The notes beneath the pieces were generated by a model that was not told where the DNA came from, ran no database searches, and saw only the letters and a program-made list of their open reading frames with translations. Source: Gemmatimonadaceae bacterium (lineage in GTDB: Bacteria; Gemmatimonadota; Gemmatimonadetes; Gemmatimonadales; Gemmatimonadaceae). Taken from it: a stretch of 64,000 nt of DNA. Location of the stretch: positions 186,001 to 250,000 of the forward strand of contig JAIEMN010000019.1 of assembly GCA_019752115.1 (NCBI GenBank). Reading direction: 5' to 3'. The position numbers and the translations under genes are program-made. Positions 13,770 to 64,000 of this stretch are shown one piece after another; the first letter of the stretch is position 1; the number at the start of each line of letters is the position of its first letter.

Positions 13770-15056
13770 ATGTCCGCGAATCCAGCCCCCCTCGAAGAAC
13801 TCGCCTGGCGCGAGCTCCTGTTTCAGCACACCGACGGTCTGCCGGCGGCGTTCCAGAGTGGTACCGTGACCGGCTACTGCGGGTTCGACCCCACGGCGTC
13901 GAGCCTGCACGTCGGCAACCTCGTCCCCGTGATGGGGCTGGTACACCTGCAGCGTGCCGGCCACCGTCCCATCGCGCTCGTAGGCGGCGGCACGGGGATG
14001 ATCGGCGATCCGAGCGGGCGCAGCAGCGAGCGGAACCTCCAGGATCTCGACACGATTCGCGCCAACGCCGAGGCCATTCGCGGGCAGCTGGCCAAGTTCC
14101 TCGACTTCGAGGGCCCCAGGGGCGCGAAGCTGATGAACAATGCCGACTGGCTGATGCCGCTGTCGCTGCTCGATTTCCTGCGCGACACCGGCAAGCATTT
14201 CTCCATCAACTACATGCTGGCCAAGGACTCGGTGAAGAGCCGCCTCGAGGGCGGTATCTCCTTCACGGAGTTCTCCTACATGCTGCTCCAGAGCTACGAC
14301 TTCCTCGAACTGCACAAGCGCGAGGGGGTCACGCTGCAGATCGGTGGCAGCGACCAGTGGGGGAACATCACCGCCGGCCTCGAGCTCATCCGCAAAACGA
14401 CGGGCGGGGAGGCGCACGCGCTCACCTTCCCGCTCATCACCAACGCCGACGGCACTAAGTTCGGCAAGAGCACGGGTGGCGGCTCGGTGTGGCTCGACCC
14501 GGCGCGCACGTCGCCGTACAAGTTCTACCAGTTCTGGATCGGCGCCGACGACCGCGATGTGTCGCGCTACCTCCGCTACTTCTCGCTCCTCTCACGCGAG
14601 GAGATCGAAGCGCTCGACGAGGCCGTACGGACGGCGCCCGAGAAGCGCGCTGCTCAGCGCGCCCTCGCGACCGACGTCACCGCCCGCGTGCACGGCGCCG
14701 ATGCCGCCCGCGTGGCGCAGGAAGTCTCGGCGCTGCTCTTCGAAAAGGCCGATCCCGCCGCGCTCTCCGACGGAGCGCTCGCGGCCCTGCGCGAGGAGAT
14801 TCCGTTCGCCACCTACGCCCCGCCTGCCGAGAACCCGCCGGCGAGTGGCGTGGACATCTACGAATGCCTCACGCTGCTGGGCATCGCCGCCTCGCGTGGT
14901 GCCGCCAAGCGCCTGCTCGAACAGGGCGGGATCGCCGTGAACGGCGCGAAGCTCACCGCCGCCGATCGTGTCGTTGGCGAGGAGCGGTTGCTGCGCGGGC
15001 GGCATCTGCTCATTCGCAAGGGACAGCGGGAGTTTGGGTTGGTGCAGGTTCCCTAG
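13770..15056 (+). CDS. tyrS: Tyrosyl-tRNA synthetase
   Basis: A 428-residue class I synthetase that charges tRNA-Tyr with tyrosine in the cytoplasm. Visible signatures are the HIGH-type motif 'PTASSLHVGNL', the tyrosine pocket region 'LQIGGSDQWGN', and the KMSKS equivalent 'TKFGKS', which is the usual bacterial TyrS variant. The C-terminus is an S4-like RNA-binding domain ('GAAKRLLEQGGIAVNGAKL'). The length is normal. The TAG stop (15054-15056) is the first triplet of a long palindrome shared with the convergent aminotransferase gene. Confidence 0.96.
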   Translation: MSANPAPLEELAWRELLFQHTDGLPAAFQSGTVTGYCGFDPTASSLHVGNLVPVMGLVHLQRAGHRPIALVGGGTGMIGDPSGRSSERNLQDLDTIRANAEAIRGQLAKFLDFEGPRGAKLMNNADWLMPLSLLDFLRDTGKHFSINYMLAKDSVKSRLEGGISFTEFSYMLLQSYDFLELHKREGVTLQIGGSDQWGNITAGLELIRKTTGGEAHALTFPLITNADGTKFGKSTGGGSVWLDPARTSPYKFYQFWIGADDRDVSRYLRYFSLLSREEIEALDEAVRTAPEKRAAQRALATDVTARVHGADAARVAQEVSALLFEKADPAALSDGALAALREEIPFATYAPPAENPPASGVDIYECLTLLGIAASRGAAKRLLEQGGIAVNGAKLTAADRVVGEERLLRGRHLLIRKGQREFGLVQVP

Positions 15057-15179
15057 GGCTCGCTGCGCTCGCCGACAACTGGGACAACAGCGGGACAACC
15101 CACGAGGATTGTGGCCGAAGCCAATCCTCGTGGGTTGTCCATTTTGTTTCCCGGTTGTCGGCGAGCGCAGCGAGCCCTA
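15054..15179. terminator. 126-bp nested palindrome containing both convergent stop codons
   Basis: A perfect 26-bp outer stem (15054-15079 with 15154-15179) and a perfect 18-bp inner stem (GGACAACCCACGAGGATT and its complement) are separated by matched 13-nt internal loops, with a short terminal loop. The outer arms begin and end with the TAG stops of tyrS and of the minus-strand aminotransferase gene. This is the layout expected of a bidirectional terminator. The inner arm belongs to the same GGACAAC-ACGAGG family as the array at 10077-10203. Confidence 0.8.
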
Positions 15180-16325
15180 AGAGTCCAGCAGCCCAAGCAC
15201 CCGATCGATCTCGTCAGCGGTGTTATAGCAGTGCGGCGACAACCGAATCGCCCCCTCGCGCACAGTGTAGGACACATGTCCCGCCTTGAGCCGAGCCGCC
15301 ATCGCGTCGAGGGCCGTTGGCGCGAACGAGAAGACGCCTGCCCGCCGCGCGCGATCCGCTGGCGTGACCAGCCGCACATCGGACCGTGACTCGGCCCACG
15401 CCACAATGCGGTCGCCCAGCGCCTCGATGTGCGCGGCGACATTGGCCACGCCGAGCTCGAGGAGCATGGCGGTGGCGGCGTTGGCGACGGCAAAGTCGTG
15501 GTAGGCCAGCGTCACCACTTCAAATCGCCGGGCGTCGTCGAAGAAGTCGAACTCGTAGTCGGTCAGGCGCGTGTAGTCGGTACTCGACTTCATGCACGCC
15601 CACCCCACATCGAGCGGCTCGAGCTGCGTGACGAGTCCACGGCGGACATACACGAAGCCGGTGCCCCACGGGCTGAGCTGCCACTTCTGCGCGCCGCTGG
15701 CGAAGATGTCCACCGGCAGGGCATGCAGATCGATGGGGCGGATACCGCAGCCCTGAATACCGTCCACGATCACGAAGACGCCCTTCTGCCGACAGGCGTG
15801 ACCGATGCGCGCGAGGTCCGCGACGAAGCCGGTGGCAAACTGCACCCAGCTCACGACGACGGCCACCACATCATCGCGCTGCTGAATGGCCGTCACCAGC
15901 GCGTCTTCGTCCGGCAACCCGTTCACGCGCGGGATGAGTTCGAGCGTGATGCCGCGTGAGCCGAGGGCCTGGAACGGGTAGACGCAGCTCGGAAACTCGC
16001 CGTCGAACGCCAGAATCACGCCCGGCCGCAGCGGCAACGCGCGCGCGGCGAGATTGAGCCCGTACGTGGTGTTGGGCATCAGCGCGATCTCGTCGGCGTC
16101 GGCCCCCACGAGCGCGGCGAACTGCGTACGCGCGGTCGCCGCCGCCTCCTGCATCAGCGCAAACGGAATGGTGTGCGGCCTGGCTCGCAGCCCCGCCCAT
16201 CGCGCAAAGGTGTCGACCGCGCGCTGGGGGTTGGGACCGGTACTGGCGGCGTTGAGATAGATCGTGGGATCGTCCGCCATCCAGGCGTACTCGCGCGCGC
16301 GCAGCGCCGGGACATCGAGGCTCAT
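15177..16325 (-). CDS. PLP-dependent aminotransferase class V (cysteine desulfurase-like)
   Basis: A 382-residue fold-type I PLP enzyme. The frame is open to 16490, but that extension overlaps the permease gene upstream; the ATG at 16325 ('MSLDVPALRARE') fits an operon spacing of 19 bp. Motifs: 'YLNAASTGPNP' at the N-terminus, the cofactor aspartate/His region 'FVIVDGIQGCGI', and the Schiff-base lysine in 'ASGAQKWQLSP'. The family includes cysteine desulfurases, isopenicillin N epimerases and kynureninase-like enzymes. No Fe-S assembly gene is adjacent, so a SufS/IscS role is not supported. Last gene of the minus-strand operon from 21777. Confidence 0.85.
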   Translation of the reverse strand: MSLDVPALRAREYAWMADDPTIYLNAASTGPNPQRAVDTFARWAGLRARPHTIPFALMQEAAATARTQFAALVGADADEIALMPNTTYGLNLAARALPLRPGVILAFDGEFPSCVYPFQALGSRGITLELIPRVNGLPDEDALVTAIQQRDDVVAVVVSWVQFATGFVADLARIGHACRQKGVFVIVDGIQGCGIRPIDLHALPVDIFASGAQKWQLSPWGTGFVYVRRGLVTQLEPLDVGWACMKSSTDYTRLTDYEFDFFDDARRFEVVTLAYHDFAVANAATAMLLELGVANVAAHIEALGDRIVAWAESRSDVRLVTPADRARRAGVFSFAPTALDAMAARLKAGHVSYTVREGAIRLSPHCYNTADEIDRVLGLLDS

Positions 16326-31316: not shown

Positions 31317-32402
31317 ATGTCCACCGAGCCCGCACCCGTGGACGTGCCGCTCCCCCACGATGCGCCCAAGGGGAGCCGCACCTCCGACTATGACTATGAT
31401 CTGCCGGACGCACGCATCGCGCAGCGGCCGGTCGAGCCGCGCGATGCGAGCCGCATGCTGGTCGTCGATCGCGCCACCGGCTCCCTCGCGCACCGCACGT
31501 TCCGCGACGTCGCCGAGCTGATTCCCGAAGGCGATGCGATCGTGCTGAACACCACCAAGGTGTTCAAGGCGCGCCTGCTCGGGCATCGTGACAGCGGCGG
31601 CCCCGCGGAAATTCTCCTCCTGCGGCCGCTCGACGAGACGCACTACGAAGCGATGATCCACCCGGGTGGCAAACTGCGACCGGGGCGCATGGTGACCATC
31701 GCGCCGGGCTTCCGCGTGGAGATCGTGGACGCCACCCCGCGCCGCACGCGCGTCGTGAAGCTGCACGTGGACAGCGGCTCGGTGACCGACGCCATCGAGG
31801 CGCACGGCCACGTGCCGCTGCCGCCCTATATCGAGCGCGCGGATGAACAGAACGACACGACGCGCTACCAGACGGTCTACGCGAACGAAGCGGGCTCTGT
31901 CGCCGCGCCGACCGCGGGGCTCCACTTCACGCCGGAGCTGCTCGCCACGCTCGAACGCAAGGGCGTCGAACGGGTGAACGTGCTGCTGCACGTGGGCGCG
32001 GGCACCTTCCGCCCGGTGAGCGACGAAGATCCGGCGCTGCACGTGATGCACGAGGAGTGGTGCGAAGTCACCGACGACGCCGCGCAACGCCTCAACGCGG
32101 TGCGGGCCCGCGGCAACAAGATCTGGGTGATCGGCACCACCGGCGTGCGCACGCTGGAGACGGCGACAGGGCGCGACGGCATCGTGCAGCCGTTCCGCGG
32201 GGAGACGAACATCTTCCTGCGCCCGCCGTACGAGTTCCGCGGGGTGGACCATCTGATCACGAACTTCCACCTCCCCAAGAGCACGCTCATCATGCTCGTC
32301 GCCGCCTTCGCCGGCTACGATCTCACCATGAGCGCTTACCGCACTGCGGTGGCCGACGAGTACCGCTTCTACTCGTACGGCGACGCCATGTGCCTCATCT
32401 AG
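31317..32402 (+). CDS. queA: S-adenosylmethionine:tRNA ribosyltransferase-isomerase QueA
   Basis: A 361-residue enzyme that moves the ribosyl part of SAM to 7-aminomethyl-7-deazaguanine in tRNA, making epoxyqueuosine. Signatures are 'YDLPDARIAQRPVEPRDASR', 'NTTKVFKARLLG', 'SVAAPTAGLHFT' and the C-terminal 'ITNFHLPKSTLIMLVAAF'. A much longer frame is open upstream but runs through ruvB; ATG at 31317 gives the standard length. It precedes tgt, the earlier enzyme of the same pathway, after a 580-bp palindrome-filled gap. Confidence 0.95.
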   Translation: MSTEPAPVDVPLPHDAPKGSRTSDYDYDLPDARIAQRPVEPRDASRMLVVDRATGSLAHRTFRDVAELIPEGDAIVLNTTKVFKARLLGHRDSGGPAEILLLRPLDETHYEAMIHPGGKLRPGRMVTIAPGFRVEIVDATPRRTRVVKLHVDSGSVTDAIEAHGHVPLPPYIERADEQNDTTRYQTVYANEAGSVAAPTAGLHFTPELLATLERKGVERVNVLLHVGAGTFRPVSDEDPALHVMHEEWCEVTDDAAQRLNAVRARGNKIWVIGTTGVRTLETATGRDGIVQPFRGETNIFLRPPYEFRGVDHLITNFHLPKSTLIMLVAAFAGYDLTMSAYRTAVADEYRFYSYGDAMCLI

Positions 32403-32455
32403 CTCGCAGCGCTTTCGCGATCGTCTGGCGGTTGCGGGGCTGAGATTGGTGCGGG

Positions 32456-32565
32456 GGGCGGGAGCGCGACGCCGCGCGCAGCGGGGAGTCTCCGGGGTTC
32501 GGAAACCGCTGCGCGGTTCCGAAGCCCGGAGACCTCCCCACTGCGTCGGCATCGCGCCCCCGCCC
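32456..32565. repeat. ~110-bp nested palindrome A
   Basis: Core arms 32483-32509 and 32513-32539 (GGGGAGTCTCCGGGGTTCGG and its imperfect complement) enclose a 3-nt loop. Outer arms of about 18 bp (GGGCGGGAGCGCGACGCC and GGCATCGCGCCCCCGCCC) pair with two G-T-type mismatches. Same core and total size as elements B, C and D. Confidence 0.8.
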
Positions 32566-32587
32566 TGACGCAGGTACGGCCCGGTAT

Positions 32588-32635
32588 CCGACGTCCGACA
32601 TCGCGCGCGGCGCTTCGCTGGCGCGCGGACGTCGG
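32588..32635. repeat. Palindrome between elements A and B
   Basis: CCGACGTCCG (32588-32597) pairs perfectly with CGGACGTCGG (32626-32635). GC-rich inner sequence (CGCGCGCGG against GCGCGCG) can extend the stem. Its arms are unrelated in sequence to the TCCGGG-core family flanking it. Confidence 0.6.
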
Positions 32636-32814
32636 ACGGCCGAATACTCGGCGTGTCCTTCGCGCGCGGCCATGCGGGCGCGTGCGCATGGTGAGGTCGC
32701 AGCCAGCGAGACGGCGCGAGCCCTTCGATTCGCAGAGTCCTGCCCAAGTCCCGACCGCCAGCGAGCGCAGCGAGCGTCGCACCCAGAGGTCGGAGGCTGT
32801 TCGCAGTCCCCGCC

Positions 32815-32923
32815 GGGGCTGGCGGTGACGGTCCGCACGCGGCGGAGGTCTCCGGGCTTCGGAACGCGCAGCGTTTCCGAACCCCGGAGACTCCGTCGTG
32901 GGGGGACCGTCACCGCCAGCCCC
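32815..32923. repeat. ~110-bp nested palindrome B with perfect 20-bp outer arms
   Basis: Outer arms 32815-32834 and 32904-32923 (GGGGCTGGCGGTGACGGTCC and exact complement) enclose core arms near 32844-32865 and 32874-32894 carrying TCTCCGGGCTTCGGAA and its near-complement. Lies 59 bp before the tgt start. Confidence 0.85.
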
Positions 32924-32982: not shown

Positions 32983-34140
32983 GTGACCACCCCGTTCAAG
33001 TTCGAGATTGAGGCCCACGACGGCCACGCGCGCGCCGGCACGTTCATGACGCCGCATGGGCCGGTGCAGACGCCGCAGTTCATGCCGGTGGGGACGCTGG
33101 CGTCGGTGAAGGCGCTCGACCCCGAGGACCTGCACCGGCTCGGCGCCACGATGGTGCTGAGCAACGCATACCACCTGCGCCTCCGGCCAGGGGACGACCT
33201 CGTCCGGACCATGGGCGGGCTCCACCAGTTCATGCAGTGGAGCGGCCCCATGCTCACCGACTCCGGCGGGTTCCAGGTCTTTTCGCTGGAAGGACTGCGG
33301 GCCATCAAGGAGGAGGGCGTCGAATTCCGGAGCCACCTCGACGGCTCCAAGCAGCAGTTCACCCCCGAGTCCGTCATGCGCATCGAGCGCAACCTCGGCG
33401 CCGACGTCATCATGCAGTTCGATCACGTCGTCCCCGGGCAGTCGCCGCACGACCTCGCCAAGGAGGCGATGGAGCGGAGTATCCGCTGGCTCGAGCGCTG
33501 CCGGACCGAGTTCAACCGGCTGCTGGTCGAGGACACGCTCGCCCCCACCCCGGTCCAGGCGCTCTTCCCCATCGTGCAGGGCGGCATTCACGCCGACCTG
33601 CGCCGGGATTCGGCGCGCGCCATTCAGGGCGTCGGCGACTGGGTCGGCTTTGGCATCGGCGGGCTGTCGGTGGGCGAGGCCAAGCCCGACATGTACGCCG
33701 TGCTCGATGTCGTGAACGAGGTGCTCCCGACCGATCGGCCGCGCTACCTCATGGGCGTCGGCTTCCCCGAAGATCTCGTGGAGGGGGTCGCGCGCGGCGT
33801 GGACCTCTTCGACTGCGTCGCCCCCACCCGCATGGGACGCACCGGGGCCTTCTTCACGACCACCGGCCGGCGGAGCATCAAGAACGCCGCCTGGCGGCTC
33901 GACTCGTCCCCCTTGGATGAGGCCTGTACCTGCCCGGCCTGTACCCGGTTCTCCAAGGCGTATATCCGGCATCTCTTCGTGGCCGAAGAGATCCTCGGAC
34001 TCCGCCTCCTGAGCCTGCACAATGTACATTTCCTCGTTGCGCTGATGCGCGATGCCCGGGCCGCCATCCAGGCCGGCTCGTTCGAGGGCTGGAGCCGGGA
34101 TTGGCTCGCCCGCTACCACTCCGGAAAGACTGCCTCATGA
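32983..34140 (+). CDS. tgt: tRNA-guanine transglycosylase
   Basis: A 385-residue TIM-barrel enzyme that swaps guanine-34 of Asn/Asp/His/Tyr tRNAs for the queuosine precursor preQ1. Start is GTG. Catalytic aspartates lie in 'MLTDSGGFQVFSL' and 'DLFDCVAPTRMGRTG'; 'VQGGIHADLRRDSA' shapes the base pocket. The zinc site is in 'CTCPACTRFSKAYIRHLF' (three Cys, one His). It ends ATGA-coupled to yajC at 34137-34140, a widespread tgt-yajC order. Confidence 0.96.
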   Translation: MTTPFKFEIEAHDGHARAGTFMTPHGPVQTPQFMPVGTLASVKALDPEDLHRLGATMVLSNAYHLRLRPGDDLVRTMGGLHQFMQWSGPMLTDSGGFQVFSLEGLRAIKEEGVEFRSHLDGSKQQFTPESVMRIERNLGADVIMQFDHVVPGQSPHDLAKEAMERSIRWLERCRTEFNRLLVEDTLAPTPVQALFPIVQGGIHADLRRDSARAIQGVGDWVGFGIGGLSVGEAKPDMYAVLDVVNEVLPTDRPRYLMGVGFPEDLVEGVARGVDLFDCVAPTRMGRTGAFFTTTGRRSIKNAAWRLDSSPLDEACTCPACTRFSKAYIRHLFVAEEILGLRLLSLHNVHFLVALMRDARAAIQAGSFEGWSRDWLARYHSGKTAS

Positions 34141-46628: not shown

Positions 46629-46635
46629 GAGGAGC

Positions 46636-46755
46636 GTATACAAACGGCGTATACGAAGGGCGTATACGTGTCGCGTATACGAACCTCGGGAAACGCGGTT
46701 CTCCGCTTCATGTATACGATCACGTATACGCCCCACGTATACGCCCCAGGTATAC
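46636..46755. repeat. CGTATACG double array, 4 + 4 palindromic units around a spacer
   Basis: GTATAC hexamers start at 46636, 46649, 46662, 46675 and then 46712, 46724, 46737, 46750 (spacing 13,13,13, gap 37, then 12,13,13). The two halves can pair unit by unit into a long stem of ~8-bp helices separated by ~5-nt internal loops, closed by a ~31-nt spacer that has its own small GCGG...CCGC stem. It fills the gap between convergent genes. A half-element with the same spacing follows ruvA. Confidence 0.85.
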
Positions 46756-46759
46756 GCAG

Positions 46760-47500
46760 TTACCCCACCACTCCCCGCGCAACAACCTGCCCCGCAAGCC
46801 GCTCCACATACGCGTCACCCTCAACCGCTCGTTCCGCGCAAACCCCTCCCCGCGCCAACGAGCTGTGCACAAACCCGCCGTCGCCCGTGCCGATCGCGAC
46901 GTGCGTGATGCGCCGATCGTCGCGGTCTGAGAAGAACACCAGCTCGCCCATCGCGAGCCCCTCGAGCGACGACGCCGGGGTGGCGTGAATGGCTTCGGCC
47001 TGCTGCCACGCATCACGCGGCAACCGCACACCGTGCGCGCCGAAGGCGCGCTGCACGAGACCGGAGCAGTCCACGCCCCATGGCGAGACGCCGCCCCACA
47101 CATACGGCGCGCCGCTGAAGTAACCAAGGGCCGTGGCGACGATCGCCGACGCGGTCTGCGGAAAGCGCGCGCGCTGCGCGGCGGCGTCGATGACCTCGCC
47201 GCTCACGACTTCGTCGCCCGGCGCCACGCGGGCGCCAAATGGCAGGGCGCGGACGATGCCCGTGACGCCACGCGTCACACACCCCAGCGACAGCCGCCAC
47301 GTCGCCTCGCTGCCCGTACTCGGCATCACATAGCCGCGATGCAGCCACCCCTCATAGGCGTCCGGCCCGCGAACCCTGAGCCAGTCGCCCGACGCGTCGA
47401 GCATCTCCACCACCTCGCCATGCAGCAGCTGCGAGGTCAGCGGACTCGAAACCCGGGCCTCTGCATTGAGCGGGGCAAGTGCAGCGCGGATGGTAGGCAC
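46760..47500 (-). CDS. NlpC/P60-family endopeptidase with SH3-like domains
   Basis: A 246-residue cell-wall peptidase (C40). Two SH3-like stretches cover residues 10-120 ('HGEVVEMLDASGDWLRVRG', 'YEGWLHRGYV'). The catalytic Cys is in 'WGVDCSGLVQRAFGAHG', the His in 'RRITHVAIGTGDGG'. This is the YkfC/AcmB-type layout of gamma-D-Glu-diamino-acid peptidases that recycle murein peptides. No signal peptide is visible, so it may act in the cytoplasm. Next to it upstream is an 88-bp gap and the hybrid kinase on the same strand. Confidence 0.88.
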   Translation of the reverse strand: MPTIRAALAPLNAEARVSSPLTSQLLHGEVVEMLDASGDWLRVRGPDAYEGWLHRGYVMPSTGSEATWRLSLGCVTRGVTGIVRALPFGARVAPGDEVVSGEVIDAAAQRARFPQTASAIVATALGYFSGAPYVWGGVSPWGVDCSGLVQRAFGAHGVRLPRDAWQQAEAIHATPASSLEGLAMGELVFFSDRDDRRITHVAIGTGDGGFVHSSLARGGVCAERAVEGDAYVERLAGQVVARGVVG

Positions 47501-61847: not shown

Positions 61848-61870
61848 CGAGGCGGGCGGGGAAAGACTGG

Positions 61871-62003
61871 TACTGCGGAAAGGCGTACGGCGGGAAGACG
61901 TACTGCGGGAAGACACACAGCGGGAAGACGTACCGCGACACCGCAGTAAATCGCCGTACGTCTTCCCGCAGTACGTCTTCCCGCCGTACGTCTTTCCGCA
62001 GTA
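61871..62003. repeat. 133-bp gene-free inverted element of the GCGGGAAGAC family
   Basis: Left arm 61871-61914 and right arm 61960-62003 are reverse complements over 44 bp with one mismatch (GGCG against GACG). Units alternate TACTGCGGGAAGACG and TACGGCGGGAAGACG. The 45-bp centre contains further partial units (GCGGGAAGACGTACCG and CGCCGTAC). It lies between the permease stop and the adenosyltransferase gene and encodes nothing. Confidence 0.85.
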
Positions 62004-62044
62004 CATCAGTTCACCTCCCCCCCAAGCCGATTACCTTTCGCCCC

Positions 62045-63728: not shown

Positions 63729-63747
63729 GACCGGCACTGGCGCGGGA

Positions 63748-63857
63748 CGCGGGGGCTGGCGTGCGGCGCCTCACGGCCCTGTCCCGGGTTGGGAAACGCC
63801 GTGCCGGCGTTCCCAAGCCGGGACAGCGGCCGCTCGGACCGCACGCCAGCCCCCGCG
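63748..63857. repeat. ~110-bp nested palindrome C with perfect 19-bp outer arms
   Basis: Outer arms 63748-63766 and 63839-63857 (CGCGGGGGCTGGCGTGCGG and exact complement). Core arms around 63776-63800 and 63804-63831 carry CTGTCCCGGGTTGGGAAACG and near-complement. It begins 20 bp after aroB and could act as its terminator. Confidence 0.85.
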
Positions 63858-63944
63858 TTTGCGATCTCAGGCGCGAACCGCTCTGACCTCTGACCTCCGC
63901 GCCCCAGGCGAAGCCGCCCGGGCGCTCCGGCGGGGGTGCGGCGC

Positions 63945-64000
63945 CGAGCGGTCGCTCTCCGGGCTTGGGAAGGCCGCCGGCGTTCCCAACCCCGGAGAGG
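63945..64000. repeat. Nested palindrome D, cut by the window end
   Basis: Core arms CTCTCCGGGCTTGGGAA (63955-63971) and TTCCCAACCCCGGAGAG (63983-63999) match the core of elements A-C. The right outer arm lies beyond the window, so the outer stem cannot be checked. Confidence 0.7.

Follow-up and report, generated by a model that had tools for sequence, protein, structure and literature searches.

Inverted pairs of large intergenic hairpins with a conserved core and divergent, self-pairing arms in a Gemmatimonadaceae genome

The gap between queA and tgt in this genome (genes named by NCBIfam) raises the question of what kind of element two large, closely spaced palindromes represent. Within the window, the 64,000-nucleotide stretch of DNA analysed as a whole, queA ends at 32402 and tgt starts at 32983, and the 580-bp gap holds two hairpins of roughly 110 letters each that face each other. 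Hairpin A (32454..32565, + strand, apex near 32510) forms the left member, its G..G mismatch reading on the + strand, and matches the family covariance model at G000:C19:218467-218554 (+, 80.3 bits). Hairpin B (32815..32923, - strand, apex near 32869) forms the right member, is of the same type read on the - strand, and matches at G000:C19:218827-218912 (-, 81.6 bits). A sequence-only reading of the locus had described two near-perfect palindromes with a common core and unlike yet self-pairing outer arms, and this description holds: folding energies reach -107.4 kcal/mol for A (z -10.8) and -105.8 kcal/mol for B (z -9.3), with none of 200 shuffles folding as well, and both hairpins beat shuffles as DNA too, on either strand. 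The core of A contains TCTCCGGGGTTCGGAA on its 5' side (32489..32504, +), facing the 3' side at 32517..32532 (-). A 22-nt core on each side is common to both hairpins, and the A core is 100% complementary to the B core (32485-32506/32873-32894 and 32516-32537/32844-32865), so that B carries A's core reversed in orientation, an arrangement absent from the sequence-only reading. Outer-arm sequence is different in A and B, yet each hairpin pairs its own arms, with about 6 mismatches in A and 20 consecutive pairs in B. Additionally, TTGGTGCG at 32446..32453 (+) marks a candidate left outer end of the element, and a middle palindrome at 32583..32647 carries TCCGACGTCCGAC and belongs to a separate dispersed motif family that is also found in several other spacers. 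The window contains a second pair, with a left hairpin at 63747..63858 (+, 74.2 bits) and a right hairpin at 63920..64000 (-, 66.4 bits) that extends beyond the window to about G000:C19:250036.

A core pattern search followed by the covariance model recovers 20 hairpins on nine contigs of this genome, scoring 61-84 bits, and control patterns gave far fewer matches, which supports a genuine element over a chance resemblance. As the assembly is a draft (83 contigs, 97.1% completeness), copies at contig ends may escape this count and an enzyme gene may sit in a gap. The copies lie scattered across the genome, most of them in twos: nine pairs, whose members are 150-540 bp apart, account for 18 hairpins, two of these pairs having spacers of just 24 and 59 nt, and the remaining 2 hairpins are single. 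Every pair is intergenic and inverted, with the left member on + and the right member on -, where orientation is taken as the higher-scoring strand; being palindromes, all 20 also match the opposite strand at a lower score. The size had been proposed as fixed at about 110 bp, and it instead ranges from about 100 to 140 nt.

The core, in its oriented form, reads TCC-S-GG-G-TT-S-GG / CC-S-AA-G-CC-S-GG and retains characteristic irregularities: an unpaired G.G position in 19 of 20 hairpins (T.G in the other copy), an A bulge in most copies and a C bulge outside the core. The apical loop varies among the 20 hairpins, and pair members share it beyond shuffled partners (p<0.0002); they also agree in TTCGG/TTGGG core type in 9 of 9 pairs (p=0.009) and have similar inner arms (p=0.006, 0.0004), while their outer arms are not alike. 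Pair members thus have a common origin as a unit or are exchanged as one, and their likeness fades outwards. Near-identical copies are absent among the 20 hairpins, giving no sign of recent transposition.

Among copies the stems have diverged almost completely in sequence, with self-complementarity kept. Of the cells in the 26 modelled pairs, 87.6% are paired, compared with 73.2% in shuffles, and 72 cells are changed on both sides as against 28.0, for a covariation score of 0.309 versus 0.087; these counts, like the mismatch counts below, are not independent because the copies share ancestry. Sliding the partner by one base abolishes the signal. The co-variation of the arms read from A and B is supported across the family. 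Over whole arms, the modelled strand shows 664 Watson-Crick pairs, 11 G.T pairs and 99 other mismatches (774 aligned pairs), and these mismatches are asymmetric: A.C outnumbers G.T by 36 to 11, and C.T outnumbers G.A by 25 to 6 (Wilcoxon by locus, p=0.02 each). On the complementary, outward-reading strand the tolerated mismatches are consequently G.T and G.A, which hints that this strand is the one that folds. For the pairing of the arms, the sequence-only reading had offered either selection on a folded structure or a copying process that rebuilds arms as inverted duplicates. The former explains the conserved mismatch and bulges, and the latter is possible for the outer arms, although acting alone it would erase such irregularities.

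The genes flanking the hairpins are of ordinary chromosomal kinds, and tandem, convergent and divergent orders all occur among them. The inverted layout is unchanged whatever their direction, an observation that favours a DNA unit over a transcript signal. Many copies have a TTGGTGCG-like motif immediately beyond the outer arm, often at 32-36 nt from the core, and not on the inner side; the data that suggested this motif also served to test it. Some spacers contain a palindrome of another dispersed family; specifically, the TCNGAYRTCNGAY motif, a separate palindromic family with 74 matches in this genome against 0 for a reversed control pattern, is present in several of them, which makes the spacer only a possible conserved part of the unit. 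The spacer of the C76 pair holds a small HTH_37 gene (L039:3790-4176) whose 3' end enters the right hairpin.

The family has so far been found in one genome only and appears lineage-specific. The covariance-model search of Gemmatimonadota that had been suggested as a check detected no hairpin in 60 relatives, including 29 congeners, and a single weak match in approximately 390-395 further phylum genomes (32 bits, genome G358), located in surroundings that read as coding. A GTDB-wide pattern scan returned 39 matches, the best at 34 bits, which are taken as chance; viral contigs gave 2 pattern matches, neither scored by the covariance model, and plasmids and phages gave none. Most of the 29 congeners, all without hairpins, retain the tgt neighbour, whose identity to relatives is about 74-84% (congeners differ by 16-26%), a distance at which insertion junctions are unreadable. 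In several congeners queA-tgt is a short gap without the element, while others carry unrelated long palindromes there. These differ among congener species (L112-L138), which gives the gap the look of a hot spot. The sequence-only reading had named unpaired outer arms or variable size in further copies as findings that would count against it; no copy of the first kind was found, the second applies in part, and overall that interpretation is partly supported.

We favour, with a probability of about 45%, a lineage-specific, non-autonomous intergenic repeat in which an inverted pair of large hairpins is read as folded single strands and works like a REPIN or MITE. The unit would run from a TTGGTGCG-like outer-end motif through the left hairpin, the spacer and the right hairpin to a second outer-end motif. 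A protein or recombinase acting in trans would read each end as a folded single strand, either as ssDNA in replication or as a cruciform arm, and would recognise the conserved core through its G.G mismatch and bulges. The arms would need pairing alone, leaving their sequence free to drift, and template switching may help them stay complementary. Mobility, recognition of single-stranded DNA and the trans-acting enzyme are what we infer from this anatomy. A bolder claim, which we regard as unlikely, is a new class of mobile element with hairpin ends of about 110 nt read single-stranded, recognised by core irregularities, with arms whose sequence is unconstrained and which are rebuilt in complementary form, and served by an enzyme other than Y1/RAYT transposases.

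The main rival, possible on a tentative footing, is a structured element serving the host and selected at each locus, such as an RNA 3'-end protector, a non-canonical terminator or insulator, or a site for a chromosome-organisation protein. Such a role would fit a core invariant in all copies despite diverged arms, intergenic hairpins often placed right after a stop codon, and the preference for G.T and G.A mismatches on one strand, as in functional RNA. It fits less well with a pair layout independent of gene direction, with a favoured strand that reads outward from the spacer (two spacers being as short as noted above), and with absence from the 29 congeners, most of them retaining the tgt neighbour. 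Moreover, no T run follows the hairpins of the window pair A and B, so a canonical U-tract terminator is rejected, and Rfam gives no match at gathering score, with sub-threshold microRNA-type matches only, as arise from a plain long hairpin.

The elements could also be passive relics, functionless in their outer arms, whose complementarity is maintained by template switching during replication; this we consider doubtful. Template switching is described as homogenising inverted-repeat arms (PMC8604942), and the modelled strand shows 72 double changes against just 1 single-side (wobble) change; other long foldbacks of unrelated sequence in the genus point the same way. Arm homogenisation would, however, erase the G.G mismatch, A bulge and C bulge that persist in nearly all copies, and the 99 scattered non-wobble mismatches likewise remain.

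Long foldbacks number 38 in 396 kb of this genome, part of them probably stems within genes, whereas 400-kb samples from two congeners gave 9 and 16. Several intergenic families are apparent by eye, and tight inverted pairs were seen only for the present family in the 396 kb sampled. One layout consists of arrays of a ~15-nt unit (GCGGGAAGACGTACT) forming a long foldback (window 61870-62007; L169:806 and 3139), and another of GTATACG units about 15 nt apart in an intergenic foldback (window 46634-46761; L166:12011). A large palindrome at window 15043-15190 has GGGACAAC and CGAGCGCAGCGAGC arms, with 69-nt arms 83% complementary. A further family is centred on AACTGATC(A/C)GTT (L159:18959, L172:15239, L173:8686, L174:15857, L175:10183), and its AACCC-type arm units differ among copies yet pair. 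Loss of SbcD is not supported as a cause of the long palindromes, since 29 of 30 genomes have SbcD-type matches, most of them scoring under the curated cut-off.

That the hairpins are attC-like sites for the integron integrase encoded in the same genome is very improbable: a TIGR02249 integrase is present (G000:C69:33383-34327) and attC sites, too, fold into hairpins that carry bulged bases, but the RYYYAAC/GTTRRRY box pair occurs in 0 of 20 hairpins, none lies near the integrase, and 17 congeners have an integrase above cut-off without the hairpin. The integrase gene (L154) directly follows two tRNA genes, and a simple box scan found no attC site.

Compared with known systems, the favoured repeat shares with attC sites a folded strand, extrahelical bases and variable but complementary segments, whereas the conserved part here is the inner core and the attC boxes are missing. 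Stem-loop sequence (SLS) repeat families of bacteria (PMC2267715) are likewise intergenic with a common secondary structure; the present family differs in its strict inverted pairing and in near-saturated arm sequence change under kept pairing. Like MITEs, the element is short and largely non-coding, and its ends are inverted; the inverted hairpin cores and the TTGGTGCG-like outer motif, the latter chosen from the test data, are candidate terminal repeats. In contrast to MITEs, each end is a large hairpin in its own right and the arms diverge; among the 20 ends found none adjoins a transposase or recombinase, and contig ends may hide an autonomous partner.

The closest anatomy is that of REPINs, in which two REPs form an inverted doublet and single REPs are remnants (PMC3116915), and E. 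coli REPs, whose bulges are recognised in a strand-specific way, require a conserved bulge for TnpA_REP activity (PMC8266576). As in REPINs and BIMEs, inverted extragenic doublets predominate (9 doublets, 2 singles) and a conserved mismatch or bulge gives strand identity, whereas REPs measure 20-60 nt and the present hairpins are longer, few, and variable in covarying outer arms. Membership is rejected because the stems are too long, 0 of 20 extracted hairpins have the GTAG tag within their first 20 nt (CGTC in 2 of 20), and the 97% complete draft yields no RAYT/Y1 transposase (PF01797). With REPIN-like anatomy and failed tag, size and transposase tests, the family may act like a REPIN without being one. 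Its 20 natural hairpins offer a clean set for separating a recognition core from a pairing-only arm and point to a genus where several unrelated long intergenic foldback families coexist; the family would also extend inverted hairpin doublets beyond the RAYT/REP systems.
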